Below are positions 47,713 to 63,340 of a DNA stretch of 64,000 bases, piece after piece. The notes under the pieces are model-generated. The model was not told the origin of the DNA and searched no databases. It saw nothing but the letters and a program-made list of their open reading frames with translations. Origin of the DNA: Rhizophagus irregularis (taxonomy: Eukaryota; Glomeromycota; Glomeromycetes; Glomerales; Glomeraceae); contig NC_089455.1 in NCBI RefSeq assembly GCF_026210795.1, positions 2,356,001-2,420,000 of the forward strand, given 5' to 3'. The position numbers and the translations under genes were made by a program. Position 1 is the first letter of the stretch. Every line of letters begins with the position of its first letter.

Positions 47713-48443
47713 TAGGGATGGTTAGATGCCATCCCCTGTCCTGTCGTCCCATTCTGACCTATAAGTCCTATTCAACCCGGACTGCAGACTGGGTGGCCCT
47801 GTTAGGACCAGTCCTGGCAGGTTCAAAGGCCCCAAGACCTGGTCCTGACTAAGTTATTTATAGATTTTATGAATTTTAGTAATAATTAAATATAAAAAAG
47901 TGAGTTGCGATATCGGGATTCACTTTTTTATATTGATTTTATATAAAAAAAGTGAGTTGCGGTATCGCGATTCACTTTTTTATATTGATTTTATATAAAA
48001 AAAGTGAGTTGTGGTATCACGATTCACTTTTTTATATTGATTTTATATAAAAAAAAGTGAGTTGCGGTATCGCGATTCACTTTTTTATATTGATTTTATA
48101 TAAAAAAAGTGAGTTGCGGTATCGCGATTCACTTTTTTATATTGATTTTAATATAAAAATGTGAATCGCAATATCGCAACTCATTTTTTATATGATTTTA
48201 ATAATATAAAAATTGTATTGCAATATTGCAGTGCACTTTTTTATAATTTATAATTACTTAAAATCAAATTTACAGCAAATTATACATATATAATTTAAAC
48301 ATATAGATCTCTTATAACCTTATTGGCTAGGACTTTTTGCAGGCTCTCCGCTTACTCTGGTCCAAAATTTGGACCTAAAGATCTGCAGACCAGGTCCTAG
48401 GACCAGGTCTTTAGGTCCAGGACCTAGGACTTTACCATCCCTA
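47713..48443. mobile_element. hAT-like element, TAGGGATGG ends
   Basis: A 731-bp element with ends TAGGGATGG and CCATCCCTA, the classic Ac/hAT terminal sequence, and a perfect 8-bp target duplication ACTACCAT (47705-47712 and 48444-48451). The subterminal parts are GC-rich for this region and full of GGACC/GGTCC words in both orientations. The middle is a hairpin array (47890-48245). No coding sequence. Confidence 0.9.
47890..48245. repeat. Tandem hairpin array in hAT-like element
   Basis: About six units of 56-57 bases. Each is a near-perfect hairpin in which AAAAAGTGAGTTGCGGTATC pairs with GCGATTCACTTTTTT, separated by a TATATTGATTTTATATAAA linker. The first five units are almost identical; the last two are diverged. 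Confidence 0.85.
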
Positions 48444-48529
48444 ACTACCATTCACCATTCACCATCTATTGTCAACCATCGATCGCAGCTGATACCTACA
48501 AAATAAAAAAAGAAATAAAAATTAAAAAT

Positions 48530-50800
48530 TTTCTTAAAGTTTTGAAAAGAAAGCAAAGTTTTGAAACTCACCTATCCAAAGCCCAAGAACTGAAAGTCAA
48601 AATCTACAAAATAGAAAAAAGAAACAATTAAAAAAATATTTCTTTTAAAAAGTTTCGAAGTTTCACTTTGAAACTCACCTATATATCCAAATGCCCTAGA
48701 GCTGAAAGAAATCTACAAAATAGAAAAAAAAAACAATTAAGAAAACCAATTTTTTTTAAAGTTTCGAAATTTTACTTCGAAACTTACCCATATATCCAAA
48801 GCCCAACCGAAAGTCGAACCTACAAAATAGAAAAAAAAAACAATTAAAAAAAATTTCTTTTAAAAAGTTTCGAAGTTTTAACTTCAAAACTTACCCATAT
48901 ATCCAAAGCCCAACCGAAAGTTGAAACCTACAAAGTAGAAAAAAAAGATTAAAATATAATTAAAAAAATATATTTTTTTAAAATAAGTTACGAAGTTTTA
49001 CTTCGAAACTTACCCATATATCCAAAGTCCAACCAAAAGTCGAAACCTACAAAGTAGAAAAATAAAATTAAAATAAATTAAAAAAAAAATATTTTTTTTA
49101 AAAAAAAGCTTTGAAGTTTTCACTTCAAAACTCACCCATATATCCAAAATCCATGAACCGAAATCTATAAAATAGAAAAAAAAAATTTAAAAAATATTTC
49201 TTTTAAATAGTTTTGAAGTTTTAACTTCGAAACTTATCCATATATCCAAAGCCCAACCGAAAGTCGAACTTACAAAATAGAAAAAAGAAAACAATTAAAA
49301 AAAAATTAAAAAAAAATCTTTTTTTAAAATAAGTTTTGAAGTTTCACTTCGAAACTTACCCATAAATCCAAAGCCCAAGAACCGAAAGTTGAACCTACAA
49401 ATAGAAAAAAAAAATTAAAAAAAATTAAAATAATTTTTTTTAGAAAAAGTTTCAAAGTTTTACTTCAAAACTTACCCATATATCCAACGCTCAAGAATTG
49501 AATGCCGAAACCTACAAAATAAAAGAAAAAAAAATCAAAAAAATATAATAAAAAATAAAGACCAAGATTCGTATTTGTACTTACGAATCTTGGTTTATCT
49601 ATTCATCGGAAATCCACCTGACATATAAAAAAAAGAGAGGAACGGTTATTAGTAACTGTTCGTAATATTAAAAATAAAACAAAAAAATAAACCAAGATTC
49701 GTATATACTTATGAATCTTGGTTCTTTTCTGATCTTCGGAATTCAGAAGTCCACCGAACCTAAAAAAAAGAATGAATGGTTATTAGTAACTGTTCGTTAA
49801 TAAAATTAAAAAAAAAACAAAATAAAAAACCAAGATTCGTATATATACTCACGAATCTTGGTTTTTTTTCGTTCTTCGGAACTCAGAAGTCCCTCCCACC
49901 TATAAAAAATAAAAGAAAAAGAACGGTTAATAACCGTTCATAATATTAAAAATTAAACAAAAAAAAAATAACCAAGTTTCGAACTTACAAAACTTGGTTT
50001 TTTCCATTTTTCTATTCTTCAGAAGTCATCTGAGAGCCGACTTAAAAATAAAAGAAAAAGAACGGTTAGTATTAACCATTCATATTTTATTAAAAAAAAA
50101 CAAAAAAAAAATCCAAAGAATTCGTATTACTTACGAATCTTTGGATTTCTGTACTTCGGAAGCCCACTCGAGTGCCGAAACTAAAAAAAAAGTAAAAAGA
50201 ACGGTTAGTATTAACCATTCATATTTTATTTAAAAAAAAAACAAAAAAAAATCCAAAGAATTTGTACTACTTACGAATCTTTGGATTTCTGTACTTCGGA
50301 AGCCCACCCGAGTGCTGAAACTAAAAAAAAGTAAAAAAGAACGGTTAGTATTAACCGTTTATATTTTATTAAAAAAAAAAAATTAAAGAACTTACGAAGT
50401 TTTTTTATTATAGTTTCGAAATTTTTCGAAACTTATCTTGGGTTTCGGTATCTAAGTTGGAACCGATAGCCCTACAATTAAATATAAAAAAAACGTTAAA
50501 AACGTTTTTTTTTAAAGTTTCGAAAATGAAACTTATCTGGAATATCGGCGTCCACGCTGAAGCCGAATTCCTATATAAAAAAGATAAAAAAAACATTTTT
50601 TTTTATTAAAAAACGTTTTAAAGAAGTTTCGAAACTTTAGTTTTAAAACTTATCTGAAATATCGGCGTTCACGTTGGAGTCAAATTCCTATATAAAAAAA
50701 AAAACATTTTTTTTATTAAAAAACATTTTTAAAGAAGTTTCGAAATATTTGTTTCGAAACTTACCTAGAATATCGGCGTCCACGTTGGAGCAGAACCCCA
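48530..50800 (-). repeat. Splice-site cassette array, left
   Basis: About 19 tandem units in three families of roughly 110-140 bases (48530-49540, 49555-50395, 50400-50800). Read on the minus strand, nearly every unit is a block of 30-55 nt that starts after a 3' splice site (TTTTGTAG or TTTATATAG) and ends at a 5' splice site (GTAAGTTTCG or GTAAGT). The spacer folds: AAGTTTCGAAACTT-like in families 1 and 3, GAACGGTTAGTATTAACCGT in family 2. The third family recurs at 59760-60480. I see no open frame running through the joined blocks. Confidence 0.75.
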
Positions 50801-53179
50801 AAGATTATATATATAACTGGGATTCAGGTTTGTATAAAGTTACTATATCACTTTTTAGAAACTTAAAGTTAAATTTGTATAATCCGATCAGTCGGTAAAT
50901 TTAGAAGTTAGGTATACGTTTGTATAACGGAAATAGATTTTTAAAGCAAGTCAGATTTTAATTTGTATAAAATACATTTATACATTATTAGTATATATCT
51001 ATATATAAAAAATGTGATCATACAATTTTTCATCATACAATTTTTCATCATCGTGCATTTCATCTTTTTTTTCATCGTGCATTTCATTTTTTTTTATCGT
51101 GCATTTTATTTTTTTATTGTGTATTTTCATTTCTTGTTATACGTTTTATTTTTAAAAATTCTTCATATTTTTATCATAAACTTTGGTTCTTTTTGTTTTT
51201 CTTAAAATGCCATTTGCTTGGAAATATAGCAAGGAAAGACTTGCAAAACATCCATATTGCGCTCACATACTTCGTATGAAGAAAGTTATTTATCGTTGTG
51301 GTAAAACTATTAAACTTGGTCGTCGCTATGATGAAACCTTTTTAAATATTCACGTTAAGGGTAAAGGATGTTTGGCTAAGCAAGGAGTTCAATCTATCTT
51401 GAATTTTTATAAACCGATTTCTAAGCTAAAAAAAAATGAAAAAAATGAAAATGCAGATGATGTTAGTAGTGCCGAAGAATGGGAAAGTGATGATGATGAT
51501 AGAATGGATGATGATGATTTGTTTAACGTTGATGAAGAAAATGAAGTACAAACAGAAAGTGATATTGAGGATGAATACTCAAGTAGTGAAGATGATGCAA
51601 TAACCTTATCTAACAATAAACGAAAACCTTGCCCTGGTCTCAAATCTAGATCAATTCGCCAATATATCAGTCGTACTCCTGTTCAATTTGGCGGAACTAG
51701 AAGAATTGAAATTGTAGCAAAGGAGCTTTCCCTAATCTCTTTCCAAATAAATTTACGCGTAAGAGATTAACTCATTCACAAAAATGCCGATTGAATCGTC
51801 AGTTATATTCAGAAGCAATATGGCGAGTTGATCGTGATTGTAAGTTGAAGCGCTATTTGTTTCATATAATCTGTATATATACATATTAATAAAATATCTT
51901 TAATCAAGGTAATTCTGTACGTTCAATGAATTGCGCAGGATATACTGATAAAAGTGTTTGTAATGAATGTCTTAGCTTAAAAGTTGATAAGAATTTACAA
52001 AATCGAATTGCAATTGTAAAACCACCAAAATCAAAATTGAAGCATATCCCAAAACACTATTTCGAAAATGATCCTCTGAAAAAGTATTTGAAATATGTTG
52101 ATCTTAATATCGTTTGGTCTCTTATCAAAGACAATAACTCTGATACAGCTTCAGATGTTTGGGTAACATTGGCAAATAAAGGTATTAATGGTGCTTTTAA
52201 AGAAAAACCAGTTTTTACAGGTCTTTGTGAAATTATGACACAAGTTGCATCTAAAAAAGAGAAAAATAAGGGTAAACAAAACCTGAAATATTCTGAGGAA
52301 TTTAAAAACTTTCTCATAGTACTTGGTACCTTTAGTCCGCGTGCATTAAATTTATTTCGACAAAACTTAGAAGGTTTAACGATCCAGAATATCAGGTATA
52401 AAATTACTATCTTGGTACATTTTATTTAAAAAATAACTTAATAAAGCTTTTTAACAATCTTTAGGCGTTTGCGTTCTAATTCTGAAGATATATTAACGGA
52501 TCCAACACTTTGTTTTGAAAACGTAGCTCATTTTAAGCGATTTTTGGATTCAATTGGTTATGATGGACCGATTGCAGCTATGTCCGACAATACAAAACTA
52601 AAACCTCGCCTCCGATATTCATTGCAGATGGGATGCATAATTGGATCTACATTTTCAGTTAATGAGACAAGTATCGAAACATATAACGATATTCCACTTG
52701 TAATCAACAAAATTAAGGAAAATAATTCTATTGCAAAATATGTAAGAGTGTATATATTACAGGTAAATATTATTAATATATTGGTAAGGCAGGTTAAATA
52801 TAATTATGTTAACATTACGAAATTCTATTTAGGTTCCGTTGCCAAAATTTCCTCCAGTAATTATTGCTCTTCTTCCTAACAATAGATCCGATAAAACGGA
52901 ATCAATCGTCAATATACATAAGTTACTTTTGGATTTTGCACAGGAACTTGGATTACACATAATCTCAATTGGTTCTGATGGTGCCACTGGTCAAAATCAA
53001 TGCTATCGGGTATATATCGGGCACCCATATATTGGTGACTAATCAGACATATATCGGGCATTTACATATATTGGGTACCCGATTTGTCACTGATAAGTTT
53101 TCTAATATATATCGGGTACCCGATTTGTCACTGATATGTTTCCAAATATATATCGGGCACCCGATATTTGTACTGTTTA

Positions 53180-53440
53180 GGGCAACCTAAAGAAAGAAAC
53201 ATTTAGTATCATTTCTTAAAGAATATTCCCGATTCTCTTTGGCAATCTAAAAAAAAGGAAGAAAGAAACGTTTAGTAATGTTTCTTAATAAATATAATAA
53301 AAAAACCTATTTCCCACCCCCTTTTTACCTAAATTCCAAAGTTCGGGTCATATTATTTCGTCCGGCAACCTAAAAAAAGAAAAAGAGAAGCGTTAGAAAC
53401 GTTTCTCTTAAAAAAATAAGAAATACAACCCCTTTCCTCT
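53180..53440 (-). repeat. Minus-strand cassettes, short block
   Basis: Three diverged units. Read on the minus strand each starts after TTTTTAG followed by GTTGCC and carries an AAACGTTTCT-like hairpin spacer (GAAACGTTTAGTAATGTTTC at 53256-53275). They resemble the arrays outside this element. Confidence 0.5.
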
Positions 53441-53444
53441 ACCT

Positions 53445-53560
53445 TAAGGTTGCTTGCCAAAACCCATTTGGTCCAACGTGAAATGCTGAAATGCCAAAAC
53501 CTAAGACTAGCATTGTATTATAGTTTCGGCATAGTATCAGCTTTCAGTACCCAAGGCTAT
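53445..53560 (+). mobile_element. hAT-type MITE, left-end fragment
   Basis: It begins TAAGGTTGCTTGCCAAAACC, as copy 3 does, and keeps a few GCCAAAAC/TTTCGGCA words for about 115 bases. No right end is found, so it is a truncated or rearranged copy of the family at 13427, 23895 and 24307. Confidence 0.55.
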
Positions 53561-53879
53561 GGTGACCTAAAGAAGAAATATTAACATTAAAATAACTCAC
53601 CCTTCTTCATTACTAATTAATTTAATTACGCCCTGACGTATTAAATTATGGCTAATCACATGATGATCATATTATCTTTAACAGATCGTTATACAAAAAA
53701 GAAATTCTCATTTTTTCGGTCTTTTAACAGACTATTTTATTAAAAAAAACATATTTTTGGTCTTTATAGTTATACCATTTCATTAAAGAATAAAATAAAA
53801 TTTTTTTCAGTCTTTAATATTATATTTTGCCTCGAAAAAAAATTGATTAAATGATCAGATTTGATTATCTGATCTTTTT

Positions 53880-55910
53880 TTTTCTCCAGTTTCTTCAAGA
53901 ACAGACCGAACGGTACTTTCAGAACGGCGATTTGGACTTCTAAGAATGCAAGAGGTGTGGAAGGTTAGTATATTTCATTTTTTTTTCATTTTTTTTCTTT
54001 TTTCTTTTTTTTTTACTTACTTTATTTATTTCTTTAGGAATTGTCTCTTTAGAACAGCGAGTTCGGTGAACTTCTAAGAATACAAGAGATACGGGAAGGT
54101 TAGTATATTTTTTCGTTTTTTCATTTTTTTTTTATTTATAATTTTAGGTTTTTTCTTTCTTTTACTTACTTTATCCTTATTTCTTTAGAAAGGTTTCTTC
54201 TTTCTCTTCTTTCAGAATGACAATTTCGGTGGACCTCTAAGAATGCAAGATGGACGGGAAGGTTAGTATATTTTCGTTTATTTTCATTTTTTTTATTTAT
54301 TCACCTTATTCTTATTTCTTTAGGAACAGTCTCTTCTTTCAAAACGGCAGTTTCGGTAGATTTCTAAGAATGCAGGAAGTTGTGCAAGGTTAGTATTTTC
54401 ATTTTTTTTTTTCATTTTTTTTCTTTACTCACCTTATTTTTATTCTTTAGGAACGGTCTCTTCTTTTGGAATGGTGATGATCGGGAATAGAGGTAAATGA
54501 GGAGCGGATAATTAAGAAACGTTTTAACGTTTCTTTTCAGATCATTAAAGTTCAGTCTTTAATTATTAAAAAAATTATTTTTTTTTTGGAAATACTTTAG
54601 GAACTGTCACCCGGACTTGAATTCGTGAAAGAGTAAGTTAAGCATATGGTTTTTTTGTTATAGGAACATCACTAACGTTCCTTTTTTTTCTTTAGGAACT
54701 GGCATTCGGACTTGGAATTCTTTTGCGAAAGGGTAAGTTAAAGGTGTGAGAGGAGGGAGGTTTGCTGTGGGAACGTCATTAACGTTCCTTTTTATTAAAA
54801 AAACCTTCCCTTTAAGTCGTTAACTTACTTTTTAATCTTCAAGGGCAGGTTCGTCTAAAAGTTCATCCCTAAAGAAAGAAATGAAAAGGAACGTTAGTAA
54901 CGTTCCCAAATAAAAAGAAAAAAATAAAATAAACTTACCTTTCGCTAATTCGCATTAAAAATAAAAAAAAATATTAATCAACGATCAGTAAATCGCTCAG
55001 TAAATCAGATCATATGACCCGTTTCTAAACAAATCTGCCGATATGATAAATATTCTATTAAAAAGCATTTCATCAGCTTCAGTATCAGTCACATGACTCA
55101 CCAACTGAACATAAAAAAAAAATACTTTTTTCTTTTTTAGGAGCGTCTTCGGTCTTCTCCCTTTGGAATGTGACTTAGACGGCTTGAACGGCTTTGATTT
55201 CAGATGGTAAATGGAAATTTCTTTGTTTTTTTGTCTTAGGAACACCATTAACGTTCCTCTTTCTTTTTTCTTTAGGGATGCCTTTCTAAGGTCTTAGATT
55301 CGACTTGGATTATAAAAGGTAAGTTAGGAGGTGGGATTTTTCACTTTTTTTTGCCTTTGGAATATCATTAACATGCCTTTTCTTCTCTTTTTTAGGGGGC
55401 GTGTCTTCCTGGTCCTAGGTAAAGCGTTCATTCATCTTGCTTTAATACTTTCATGTTTAATTATACCAATTTTGCATTAACTTTATTTTTCTCTTTAGGA
55501 CTCCAGGTTCGTCTTTTGGATACCTGACATGGAAACGTAAGTAGAATGGGAGGTGAGAAGGGAGTTTTTTTTAAAAAATTGAGAACGTTAATGAACATTA
55601 TTAACATTCCCCTTTTTTTTCTTTAGGGACGTGGCTTCTTGAATAATAATACGAACTGTAAGCTGAAGGGTGAGGGGAGGGAATTTTTTTTTTAAATTAG
55701 GAACATTTACTAATGTTCCCTTTCTTTTTTTATCTTTAGAGACTCTTGTTTGCAGCTATTGGATACTGGACTTCAGAATGGGCTAATAGTAAGTAGAATG
55801 GGAAGGGAGGAGGTTTCTTTGTGTTGGGAACGTTTACTAACTTTTTTTCTTCTTTAGAGATGCAGCTTCTTGGATAATAATACGAACTGTAAGTTGAATG
55901 GGTGAAGGAG
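53880..55910 (+). repeat. Splice-site cassette array, plus strand
   Basis: About 14 blocks on the plus strand, the same strand as the interrupted gene. Each starts after a pyrimidine-rich 3' splice site, most often TTTCTTTAG, and ends at a 5' splice site: GTTAGTAT in the first units (53964, 54099, 54260, 54390) and GTAAGT or similar in later ones (54632, 54735, 55318, 55540, 55660, 55890). Block bodies are 30-90 nt and related in subfamilies (GGACTTCTAAGAATGCAAGA; CTTGAATAATAATACGAACT). The spacers carry GGAACGTTAGTAACGTTCC-like hairpins. A few units near 54840-54950 run on the other strand. Confidence 0.75.
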
Positions 55911-55929
55911 AAAGATTCTGAATGAATAT

Positions 55930-57290
55930 TTATTATTGTGATATTATGAAAAATCAGTGATTTAACTTGTTGACTGGTATATGTATAATAGGCTACCGAT
56001 AGGTACCCGATATGTGACTAATTGGTATATTTAAGTAGGGTTTTGTATTATTTAAAGTAATAAAGAGTTTAACTTGCAGTGTAATTCTAGTATAAATAGT
56101 ATAAATGCATTTTATTAATTATAATAATCCGGATCGATATGTTGGGGTTAAAATCCATGGCCCAATCAGAATTTGTTGTTGTAATCAGGCGATTGATCAC
56201 ATGATTTCAGTATTTATATTTCGCACTTTGTTTATTTTTTTTTTTCCTTTCGTAAAAACCTTTCTCTTAAACTTTTTATTTAAAACAAACTCTTTACTTA
56301 GGTATTATGAAATAATATTATTATTATATTTTTTTATTTATTTTTATATTAGAAATAAACATAAAGGTATATTTTCATTATGCTTGTTTTTTTCTTTTAT
56401 ATATACATTTTCTATTGACGTTCTAATACTTTTTTTCTTTTCTCTCACTATGTTTTCTACCACTTATTAACATTTTCTATTAATATTAAATACTACTAAC
56501 ATGTTTTTATTAACATTCTCGTATTAATATTTTCTATTTTACTAACTTTTCTTTCTTCCTACTAACATTTTTACTAATATTTTCTATATTTATCACTAAC
56601 GTTTTTATTAACATTTCTATTTTTATTTCTCTTATTAATTAATATACTTACTAATATTTTCACTAATATTTCTTTTAAATGTTAAACAGATAATTTTATT
56701 ATCATTGTTACTTTTAGTAGAACTTTACATATTACATAGTATAATTATTTATTTTTAATGTTCAACTTTATTTGATTTTACATATGTAGTAGATAGAGTA
56801 AGACTTGTATTATTGTTTAAATTTTAATAAAGTTGAATTTCACTTTATCTGAATTAAAATAAAAAAAGAGATATATATCTATTGGTTTCAATATGAAATT
56901 TATAGCTACTAACTGATGTATTACAAATATTTTACTACCCGATATATGTGTGTTAAATATATGATATCTATAATATATATCACTGATATTTGACTACCCG
57001 ATATGTATAAGATATATACGTGATGTTTACAAGATATGTCACCGATATTTGACTACCCGATATGTATAAGATATATACATGATGTTTACAAGATATGTCA
57101 TCGATATTTGACTACCCGATATGTGTAAGATGTATACATGATGTTTACAGTATATGTCACCGATTTTCTACATTTCTACTACACATATTGGGTACCTGAT
57201 ATGTGTGATATTGTTAAATATCATACACATATATCACATATATTATACACATATCAGGTACCCGATATGTACCCGATAGTATTGATTTTG
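55930..57290. repeat. Subterminal repeats of 4.3 kb element
   Basis: 56930-57290 holds a 62-63-base repeat (GATATTTGACTACCCGATAT followed by GTATAAGATATATACATGAT), about four copies, then ATCAGGTACCCGATATG words. The left subterminal region (53005-53165) has the same words (ATATATCGGGTACCCGATTT) in inverted sense. 56110-56900 is T-rich with TACTAACATTTT words. No gene. Confidence 0.65.
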
Positions 57291-59759
57291 ACCAGTGTGC
57301 ACAAGTTGAGTTTAACGCACAAACTCAAATTCAACAGATTAAAACTTCCGATAGACTTAGATTTAATTATACACCATATAACATTGATTTCAGTTGTCCA
57401 ATTTTTCCAAATATTGGACCAATAGTACGAATTCAAGATCCTAAACATGCTAAGAAGACGGGACGTAATGCAGCAATGTCTGGTGCTCGAGCTCTCACAT
57501 TTGGTCATTCTACTATAGGATTTAATCATTTTACAAAATTGTTATCTCATCTCCAAAGTCCCATGTATAAGTCTGATGTGTATAAGCTTGATCGTCAAGA
57601 CGATGGTGCAGCTTATCGAACCTTTTGCCCTAAAAATTTGGCATGTTGCCTTGATTCTAATAATAAGATCAAATCCGAATTCAAGGGCACATTTATATAT
57701 CTATTTATAATTGGTAAGGAACTGCAACTCTTTTGTTTATAAATATAAATATACTAAATATATTTATTTAATATTTATCTTATTTTATTAGGTGAATTGG
57801 TTGATAGTTATTTGAATAGAAATATTTCACCTCTTGAACGAATAAGAATGGCAATGACTTCTTATTTTTTTTTGCGAATTTGGCGATTTCATATAAATAC
57901 ATTAGCACGAAAGTATCCTGAATTTATTTCTGTATCTCAGAACTTTATTGCATCTCAAACATTTGCAATAATGACTTCATTAGCAGAATCAATAGTTTTA
58001 CTTGTAAAAGCTCATAGAGATTATTATAGTCAATATCCTCTTATTCCTTGGATTCATGGTTCAGAAGCCTGTGAACATTTTTTTGGAGCAGCACGGCAAA
58101 TTAATGCTGATTTTGATTTTGCAGAGTTGTTAGAAATGGTACCGAAAATTGGCCACTATACCAAAGCATTAAATTCAAAAGAATTGTCTTTCAATAAAGA
58201 GAAATCTGTACGTGATGGTAAGTAAAAAAAATTCCTTTGTTTAATACTATATAATGATTATAGCTAACATATAAATAAATTAATTATTTTACTTGATAGG
58301 ATATCAATTTGAATATAATAACGAAATTATTGAATTTGATCAAGCGAATATATTGCGATCTTGGCCAAATGATATTCAAATTCATCATGCATTTGATCAG
58401 TCACGCCAACTAGCATGTGATCTTGCTGAATTTCTAGGAATGTTGACTCCCGATATTGTACCTATTAATTCACTTCGGCCTTATATCTTAATAGGTCCTA
58501 ATGATGGAGAAGTATCTGGTTCAGATAATCATGATGAATGCATGCAAGATTCAGATGAGAATTTTTCTAATCTTGATCTTTCTCAAATAATTGGTTATGC
58601 GGCTAAAGAAGTGAATCTTATAAGACAAAAAAGAAAATGAAAGGGAAAAAGTAAACATAAATAAAGATAGTCAAAATTTGTCTTTAAATGAATGTCAAAA
58701 GCAACTTTCTTTTATTGATATAGATGAAACATTGGATTCAAGTATAATTAATACAGGTAATGTTAAAGAATTACAATTTATAAATAATTATTTATAGATA
58801 CTAATATTATTTATTTTAAATTTAAGATATTAATAATACTGATACTACTATACTGGTTACTGAAAATGTAATTGATTTTCAAGAAATGGTGTATCAACGT
58901 GAGAAGCATAATGCTTATAATTCTCGCAATATTGAACGTACAATTAAAACTAATAGTACAAAATTATGCAAATCTGGTTTAATTAAACCTAATCAAGCAA
59001 ATCATATTGTCTCATTTTTTAGTAAAAATGAAAATGCTGAAATGCGAATTGTTAAACAACGTGAAAAGAGATGGAAAAATGAGCGAAAAACTATGAGCCA
59101 ATCTCTTGCTACTTTTTATGAAAAGGGGCAATCAAAAAAACGGCAAAAAATTTTAATTGATAATAAAAATTTAAGTGAGTATAAATTGAATAAGTTTATT
59201 ATATTATTAGAAATTATTAAAATAATTTTTTCATTTTATAGTTGAAAATATTGAATCAGCAAATATTAATAGTCATAATCCTCTTAATGAGCAAGATTTT
59301 GTTCTAGTTGTTTTTGGATTACAACTTTGTATTGGACAAGTAATTTCTAGCTTTTATGAAGCATATGGATATCATAGTTATCATCAAGAACCAATTACAG
59401 ACATTGAAAATATATCATATATAACTCTCAAAGTTTTTACTTCTATACGTAATATTTTTTCAGCTTTAACAGAGGAGGGATGTTTTTTAATTACTCATCA
59501 ACATCCAAAAAATGTTATTTATCATTTAAACATGCAAGATATAAAGGTTTTTGATGATAATACTCTTCAGTTATTAAACAAAGCAAAAATTCATTATAAT
59601 TTTTTTAATCAAAAAGAAGTAATTCAGATAATTGCACAGAATTTATAACTTAGAGGTAAAGTTGTATAAAATTATAATAGGATTAGAACTTATATACTGA
59701 TTTTGTATAAAGCTATTAATAAAAATTAAATGTATAAAGAACATATTAAAATTTAAATT

Positions 59760-60480
59760 TGGATCTGAGTTATTTATATATTCTTCGGGGTCCTGTTGGA
59801 GCCGATTTCCTATATAAAGAAAATAAAAAAAACGTTTTTTTTTATTAAAAAACGTTTTATTAAAGTTTCGAAACTTTAGTTTCGAAACTTAATTGGAATA
59901 TCGGCGTCCACGCTGGAGCCGAATTCCTATACAAAAATAAAAAAAAACGTTTATTAAAAATATTCTATTAAAGAAAGTTTCGAAAATTTTTTTTAAAACT
60001 TTACCTGGAATATCGGTATCCACGCCAGAACTGATTTCCTACAAAAATTAATAAAAAAAAACGTTTTTATTGTTAAAAAACGTTTTTTAAGAAAGTTTCG
60101 AAACTTTAGTTTCAAAACTTAACTGGAATATCAGCATCCACGCTGGAGCCGATTTCCTATACAAAAATAAAAAAAACGTTTTATTAAAACGTTTTATTAA
60201 AGAAAGTTTCAAAAATTTTTTTCAAAACTTTACCTAGGGAACCGGTATCCACACCGGAATCGATTTCCTGCAAAAAATATAAAAAAGAAATGTTTTTAGC
60301 TAAAAACGTTTTTTTTTTAAAAGAAAGTTTCGAAATTTTTCGAAACTTTACCTGTAATATCGGTATCCACACTGGAACTGATTTTCTTCACTAAAAGTAT
60401 AAAAAAGAAACGTTTTTTCATGTAAAAAACGTTTTTTTAAAGAAAGTTTTGAAACTTTTTTGATTTAATAAAAAGTTACC
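59760..60480 (-). repeat. Splice-site cassette array, right
   Basis: About six units of roughly 120 bases, the same family and orientation as 50400-50800. Blocks read on the minus strand contain GGCTCCAGCGTGGACGCCGA, start after TTTTTGTATAG and end near GTAAGTTTCG or its variants. The spacers fold through AAAAAACGTTTT pairs. Some donors are mutated (AATTAAGTTTCG), so not all units are spliceable. Confidence 0.7.
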
Positions 60481-62644: not shown

Positions 62645-63340
62645 TTATTTGCGATCATTTCGATTAATATGATGGATACTTCGGATTTTTGCAACCGCTT
62701 TTTCGAGATACATCTTGTTGGCACATGGAACATGGTTTTCGGATTTCTCGTTCAAGCAGTGCATACCAACACACAGTTTCCCCATGGGTAGTTGCAGCCT
62801 TTGATTGTGGTAATATTCGAGTTTAACATTGGTATATTTATTGCCCTCGACAAATAAAGCTATTGAAGCTTGGTACCTGAACAGCATTTTACTAGTAATT
62901 GTGGTTGTTTTCCTTCCACTACGAACCGACGCCCCAAACATAAACTTCACAATCTTCTCTTCCCGTTGATATCGTTATATTTACTGCTGCCAGACTTTTT
63001 TTATTCGTGTCCATCATATCATCATTCTTGAGAGATATTTTTTTTGGTCTTGAAAGCCCATTCCCTTAAATGATTCCATCCTCATAATGTATATTGTCCA
63101 TAGGAGTGCGTTCGTGTCCATCATATCATCATTCTTGAGAGATATTTTTTTTGGTCTTGAAAGCCCATTCCCTTAAATGATTCCATCCTCATAATGTATA
63201 TTGTCCATAGGAGTGCGGCCGCATCCCATACAGAATTAGTCGACAGAATGATGGTTCTATTAATTTTCCTCCAGTGCCAAAGGGAATAAACGGAATCCTG
63301 ACCTGGGCTTTGGTTCCTAAATGAAAATTTTTTCATTAGC
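62645..63340 (-). pseudogene. Unrecognised coding-like stretch
   Basis: Minus-strand frames 63336-63121 and 62950-62645 are less AT-rich than their surroundings and read like protein (GQDSVYSLWHWRKINRT; ITSKMLFRYQASIALFVEG; LCVGMHCLNEKS). An alternative frame reads VRIPFIPFGTGGKLIEPSFC. I do not recognise the product. The 107-bp tandem duplication between the frames is not a multiple of three and breaks any single reading, so it is probably a broken gene. A real short gene ending at 62645 cannot be excluded. Confidence 0.3.
63004..63217. repeat. 107-bp perfect tandem duplication
   Basis: 63004-63110 and 63111-63217 appear identical, both starting TTCGTGTCCATCATATCATC and ending TCCATAGGAGTGCG. 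There are just two copies. Confidence 0.85.

Follow-up and report, generated by a model that had tools for sequence, protein, structure and literature searches.

Non-autonomous DNA transposons of the CMC/Plavaka (CACTA-like) type are characterized by CACTA-like ends (here CACTG) and 3-bp target-site duplications (TSDs), and those of the hAT type by short terminal inverted repeats (TIRs) and 8-bp TSDs. Rows of tiny exons are known from the schistosome micro-exon genes, in which many coding exons follow one another with lengths divisible by three. Introners, as presented in the main text of PMC9860276, are carried by DNA transposons with TIRs or TSDs and represent spliceosomal introns inserted in many genes; that main text makes no mention of 'Glomero' or 'tandem'. 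Spliced non-coding RNAs derived from transposons occur in the fungus Blumeria hordei where, by the exon numbers given in PMC10648671, transcripts of two exons make up over half of the set and those of over five exons less than 1.9%.

The elements described here share ends and duplications with the two transposon types above, yet differ from both in their bodies. In the window (the whole 64,000-nt stretch of Rhizophagus irregularis DNA that was analyzed), a CACTG element has a non-coding array of microexons and introns as its body, and elsewhere in the genome such an array fills most of a hAT-like element. In contrast to introners, introns and exons alternate in tandem within one non-coding element. 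Unlike in the schistosome genes, the rows of tiny exons carry no coding signal and only one exon family (E) has lengths that are mostly multiples of three. The likeness to the Blumeria RNAs depends on the splicing predicted here, and one array (L027) is a chain of 18 introns. In a literature search of open-access journal papers, nothing resembling these arrays came up. Their carriers belong to familiar transposon types but, to our knowledge, the microexon/intron body is new. On balance, the arrays are probably made up of genuine spliceosomal introns alternating with tiny non-coding exons, and as such constitute the body of the non-autonomous DNA elements that carry them.

The window array and its carrier element

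The genome assembly comprises 146.7 Mb in 32 contigs, with about 26% G+C. In the window, the array-bearing element interrupts a transposase gene that is itself enclosed in a larger element:

52985..57297, + strand: non-autonomous CACTG element of 4,313 bp, with TIRs, a TSD and no recognisable protein
52985-53025 and 57257-57297: TIRs of 41 nt, 93% complementary, starting with CACTG
52982..52984 (left) and 57298-57300 (right): TSD TGC flanking the element
51207..52984, + strand: 5' part of the host gene, a P-element-like transposase that on inspection contains introns
57298..59645, + strand: 3' part of the host gene, ORFs
50791-59795: larger element enclosing the P-like gene, ends CAGnACCCC, flanked on both sides by TTGGAG

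With CACTG-starting TIRs and a 3-bp TSD (scored for this element only among the CACTG elements) but without a transposase of its own, the window element is at most a non-autonomous member of the CMC/CACTA-like (CACTG type) transposons. Its longest stop-to-stop frame spans 121 aa, and a Pfam scan of six of its ORFs returned no match. One piece of the 5' part of the host gene hits PF12017 at 22.5 bits, just below the 23-bit cut-off, and the ORF pieces of the 3' part had no match in a Pfam scan. The array inside the element is organized as follows, with exon sites set by hand:

53890-55888, + strand: array of 14 short exons of 23-74 nt, each with YAG before and a donor after
53890-53963, 54038-54098, 54189-54261, 54324-54388 and 54451-54492, + strand: exons 1-5 (53890..54492), family A type, donors GTTAGT (four) and GTAAAT
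54601-54632 and 54696-54732, + strand: exons 6-7 (54601..54732), donors GTAAGT, the intervening intron with GGAACATCACTAACGTTCC around the branch word CTAAC
54829..54868, - strand: inverted single cassette within the 408-nt spacer 54733-55140
54888-54906: hairpin GGAACGTTAGTAACGTTCC within the same spacer
55141-55206, 55276-55318, 55396-55418, 55499-55536, 55627-55657, 55740-55788 and 55858-55888, + strand: exons 8-14 (55141..55888), introns with YTAAC or YTTAC, several inside a GGAAC..GTTCC-like hairpin

All 14 exons have AG before and GT after (28 of 28 dinucleotides verified). Under a fixed rule, 12 cassettes were counted on the + strand of 53880-55910, against a mean of 0.42 and a maximum of 3 in 500 dinucleotide shuffles; the minus strand has one. 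A strict chain scan, which undercounts and misses the minus-strand arrays of the window, gave this array as its sole hit within the window and nothing in five arbitrarily chosen 10-kb pieces or in five shuffled copies of each. The shuffle counts and the chain scan rule out a chance origin. The original prediction of about 14 splice-bounded blocks thus describes a real array of 14 blocks, 23-74 nt long, which in the comparison with shuffled sequence that it had proposed stands well above the controls.

Exons and introns differ in GC content (0.44 versus 0.27), and introns measure 62-90 nt in 11 of 13 cases, the other two being of 108 and 408 nt. A YTNAC-type word (YTAAC, YTCAC or YTTAC) occurs in the final 55 nt of 12 of the 13 spacers, compared to a mean of 5.0 and a maximum of 11 in 2000 shuffles of the spacer tails, and the stricter YTRAC in 6 of 13, compared to 1.85; taken alone, the window array offers moderate evidence of branch sites. 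Hairpins had been proposed to bring donor and acceptor together, but those of the + strand, such as GGAACATCACTAACGTTCC, surround the branch site close to the 3' end of the intron and bridge no donor and acceptor. The hairpin GGAACGTTAGTAACGTTCC, quoted in that context, lies in the 408-nt spacer that holds the inverted unit.

Other arrays occur on the minus strand of the window. One, with exons like GAATTCGGCTCCAGCGTGGACGCCGATATTCCAG (50529-50791 and 59802-60461), is split by the P-like element (50791-59795). Those in 48436-50314 belong to other families, with exons like GTTTCGACTTTCGGTTGGGCTTTGGATATATGG and donors GTAAGT, and include units in which the exon end and intron start could pair, leaving the donor in the loop (CCAAGATTC-GTGAGTATATATAC-GAATCTTGG). 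A perfect 107-bp tandem duplication is found at 63004-63217.

As predicted, the array lies within a transposon, which is inserted in a gene of the same orientation, although this is a single case. The orientation would suit an element designed for removal from host mRNA by splicing, limiting the harm of its insertion, as had also been proposed; the anatomy speaks against this reading, which is highly improbable. No good donor was found at the left end: the only donor-like word upstream of exon 1 is GTATAT, 26 nt inside the element (some acceptor-like words occur there too), and its use would leave 25 nt of element and 665 nt of exons in the mRNA, where the array exons would stay as frame-breaking exons. 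Moreover, clean excision takes one donor and one acceptor rather than 14, and 9 of 10 copies of the hAT-like element described below start with an acceptor and have no donor before it. It is possible that the array yields many alternative exons.

Array families and their carriers across the genome

Arrays were collected genome-wide by similarity, paired ends and pattern, and families were named by exon:

Family A, exon of 64 nt: L018, L021-L025, L031, L032 and the window
Family B, exon of 43 nt: L020, L023, L026-L029, L031 and the window, also L054-L059
Family C, exon of 31 nt: L005-L007, L009 and L010
Family D, exon of 59 nt: L009, L010 and L033-L035
Families E and its sister E2, exon of 42 nt: L036-L040 and L046, with overlapping unit sets

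Several divergent exon families form arrays, carried by CACTG elements and by a hAT-like element, and the unit around window exon 9 (55276-55318) matches family B arrays. Tandem periods of about 106-140 nt bear out the suggestion that the duplicating unit is the exon plus its intron. Donors vary by family (GTAAGT, GTGAGT, GTTAGT, GTAAAG or GTAAAA). Genome-wide, the pattern TTCTTTAGG-N20-50-GTAAGTT was found 282 times, TTAACGTTC-N4-30-TTTAGG 497 times and CTAACGTT-N4-30-TTTAGG 496 times, against 10, 22 and 45 for the respective reversed-pattern controls. In family A (L021, L022, L024 and window 53940-54432), a chain of introns can be read from the other strand as well, since GTTAGTA is the reverse complement of TACTAAC and GTGAGTA that of TACTCAC.

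Among six loci chosen to find introner-like host genes (L041-L046), inspection by eye identified two as arrays (L045, L046) and two as array-like (L043, L044), the reading of L041 and L042 being ambiguous; a coding host gene was established at none of the six. SP7-like effector genes were set apart by description, not sequence, the architecture given in the relevant parts of the published descriptions being no match. Spliced genomic copies, sought for two exon junctions, were not found, which is a weak result given that DNA transposons need no RNA step. An Rfam scan of L001, L005, L022, L024, L026 and L027 gave six miRNA-like matches, all below cut-off and near element ends, and end-finding at family A and E loci produced no convincing ends.

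CACTG end-like words number 411 in the genome, against 20 in controls, and Plavaka transposase domains gave 123 scored matches. Thirteen CACTG elements were chosen by their ends alone, out of 17 paired ends 4-9 kb apart among those listed, the window being excluded. Five of them carry chains of five or six introns and eight have no intron chain, which indicates that the array is dispensable for mobility; L017 has four cassettes by a looser rule, though no chain by the stricter count. The five array-bearing elements amount to fewer than five independent cases, since L005-L007 are 95-99% alike. A second type of tandem array, with some 27-54 units of 81 nt (or 242-nt triples), occurs in L005-L008 and L011-L017, without intron chains in L008 and L011-L016.

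Family B fills most of an element with ends TAGAGGTGTGCTCC, whose short TIR TAGAGGTGTGC we take to be hAT-like. Its left end was found 29 times, against none in controls, and 13 of the 29 are followed, among the matches listed, by a family B array in the same orientation. Both ends are in hand for six of ten copies, with an exact 8-bp TSD in four, a 7/8 match in one and none in one. Unit number is variable, the complete copies (n=6) holding 12-24 donor words each. The longest frames in five copies measure 83-119 aa; by this length hAT transposase is not encoded and the family B carrier is non-autonomous. Matches to hAT dimerisation domains in the genome number 150 (scored matches).

The first signal in 9 of the 10 hAT-like copies is an acceptor, +229 to +253 from the end and with no donor upstream, the exception being L029, where the leading acceptor is lost. 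A TATA-like ACATAAAT lies shortly upstream of the first acceptor in 7 of 10. The six copies with a right end share a nearly identical terminal exon after the last acceptor, beyond which the sole donor word is a GTGAGC 212-237 nt downstream. This layout fits a splice trap, in which the leading acceptors would let an upstream host donor splice in, and the array with its terminal exon would capture host transcripts, giving expression of the element or ending the host transcript. The family C array of L010 begins, by eye, about 80 nt from an internal CACTG end, also in keeping with a trap. However, tandem duplication may have left the first acceptor behind as a remnant and L029 does without it, and the TATA-like word implies that a start could fall at the first exon; such a trap is considered unlikely.

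Conservation of splice letters, coding tests and hairpins

Units with at least 70% coverage were aligned per family (A 35, B 55, C 50, D 49, E 78, E2 90). Donor GT and branch T and A are nearly fixed, whereas the columns of the exon bodies show differences of 9-26%. The branch A is retained in 34/35 (A), 55/55 (B), 50/50 (C), 44/49 (D), 77/78 (E) and 89/90 (E2) units, and at the first branch position C and T both occur, which is compatible with the splicing consensus. In some alignments the acceptor is less strict than the donor, the acceptor G being retained in B 49/54, D 44/49, E 67/78 and E2 76/90, and the donor G of family D is kept in 41/48. Both AG and GT are intact in 34/35, 42/55, 45/50, 40/49, 67/78 and 76/90 units of A, B, C, D, E and E2, respectively.

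In a stricter test, each unit was compared to its nearest relative at another locus (189 pairs from five families, with divergence of at most 12%, units without such a partner dropped and E2 excluded). Changes affected 12 of 1128 core letters (AG, GT, branch T and A) and 13 of 923 other splice letters, against 499 of 8150 in exons, 450 of 10989 in the remaining intron and 116 of 4206 at exon A/T sites, a class that serves to lessen the effect of decaying CpG. Fisher p values for the core letters, from pairs that are not independent, were 3e-16 versus exon, 1e-8 versus intron and 6e-4 versus exon A/T sites. In the window array, AG and GT are kept in the homologue L018 at all seven exons compared (1-7), L019 and L020 serving for the region of exons 8-14; against three homologues, 2 of 78 AG/GT letters were changed versus 74 of 866 exon letters. 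Between copies, splice letters change several-fold less than the remaining letters, and the splice signals are more conserved than the block bodies, a point that the original prediction had proposed to check. Tandem homogenisation alone should not give this pattern, as the positions are compared within the same units. These comparisons suggest that selection preserves the splicing signals without a protein, although the test does not fully separate selection before the spread of the copies from selection after it.

The exons show no sign of being coding, with stops about as frequent in sense as in antisense (A 83/69, B 87/90, C 50/50, D 122/121, E 71/60, E2 78/64). Pointing the other way, stops are rarer than in base shuffles in A, C, D, E and E2, on both strands. 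The joined window exons have a longest open stretch of 55 codons, against a shuffle mean of 64, and 12 of the 14 have lengths that are not multiples of three. Lengths of mostly 3n, and mostly 42 nt, are seen in family E alone, whose joined frames exceed all 200 shuffles in three of five loci (L036 191 vs 158, L037 148 vs 138, L038 135 vs 130); on the reverse strand, openness reaches 212 in L036 and 183 in L037, above the sense value, and 93 in L038, below it. Coding microexons are rejected given the parity of sense and antisense stops and exon lengths mostly other than 3n outside E.

Non-autonomous elements often carry captured pieces of genes. The arrays could accordingly descend from a host gene with many tiny exons that was taken up by transposons, its splice signals being inherited relics. 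Consensus exons were closer than shuffles at p<0.05 in 8 of 36 pairs (1.8 expected), mostly involving B or H; the lowest p is not below 0.0014 and none survives correction. Independent origin of all exon families is unsupported in view of these eight pairs, and a distant common origin, suggested by the consensus comparisons, is possible. This weak similarity fits one distant source and raises the standing of the captured gene, which is nevertheless a distinctly unlikely explanation, given the lack of a coding signal and the fact that splice letters stay conserved when units of different loci, on average 2-6% apart, are compared.

Perfect stems of at least 7 pairs surround the branch A in 35-71% of B, C, D, E and E2 units, versus 0-4% in shuffles, and the donor in 39-44% of D, E and E2 units, versus 0-1%. 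The donor stem is absent in B and C, and family A has neither donor nor branch stem. Selection on RNA pairing within families was not seen: there were 88 C>T changes, by which a G-U pair is preserved, and 108 G>A changes, by which pairing is lost (counts summed over family type lists, in which E and E2 overlap). The hairpins may act in RNA or in DNA. Of the double changes in stems, 24 restore the pair versus 11 that do not, many being inherited together. That branch-site stems are conserved even so, and that several share an AACGTT core, would agree with a minisatellite that is never spliced, its conserved words being DNA-level motifs such as palindromes or sites for transposase or other proteins. 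Against this reading, the family-specific donors still obey intron rules, branch position 1 varies mainly between C and T, acceptor, tract and spacing fit introns, and the stemless family A conserves its splice letters as well; an array without splicing is very unlikely.

Possible benefit of splicing

Under the preferred reading of real introns around non-coding microexons, the unit would be an acceptor, a short exon, a donor and an intron of mostly 60-90 nt with a branch site, multiplying by tandem duplication within the element. The array-bearing elements, of CACTG-ended and hAT-like types, would in turn multiply by transposition. The element would be transcribed and, judging from its sequence, spliced into a non-coding RNA; a promoter was not identified. 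Crowded with introns, this transcript could be treated as normal pre-mRNA, so that the element, or a transcript containing it, would be shielded from small-RNA silencing and nuclear decay, and copies with broken splice sites would be lost.

Shielding from RNAi or RNA decay is the preferred benefit, but only tentatively, by analogy with other systems. According to PMC5554785, which also cites plant work, introns in C. elegans act as a barrier against nuclear RNAi, and in Cryptococcus, according to the results given in PMC3744415, intron number alters mRNA level cumulatively. Work on Cryptococcus cited in PMC5554785 counts against the proposal, as unspliced introns there trigger small RNAs instead. 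A shielded non-coding transcript is ranked above the splice trap because conservation spans the internal introns, whereas a trap needs only the first acceptor.

In its broadest form, the proposal would be that non-autonomous elements of different superfamilies in this genome surround microexons of no meaning with tens of functional introns, several families keeping donor and branch site in the loops of hairpins. Their RNA would thereby be taken for ordinary pre-mRNA and evade silencing by small RNAs ('intron armour'). This full version is rather doubtful, its standing being lowered by the possible shared distant origin of the exon families. If true, it would add a new class to the known adaptations of selfish DNA. 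Splicing maintained by selection where no protein is under selection would be an unusual indication that a selfish element can profit from introns themselves. The arrays form a large natural set of introns that vary in donor, branch hairpin and number, and make it testable whether introns protect transcripts from RNA-based genome defence. Also, in genomes of this kind, transposon arrays may be wrongly annotated as genes with many exons.
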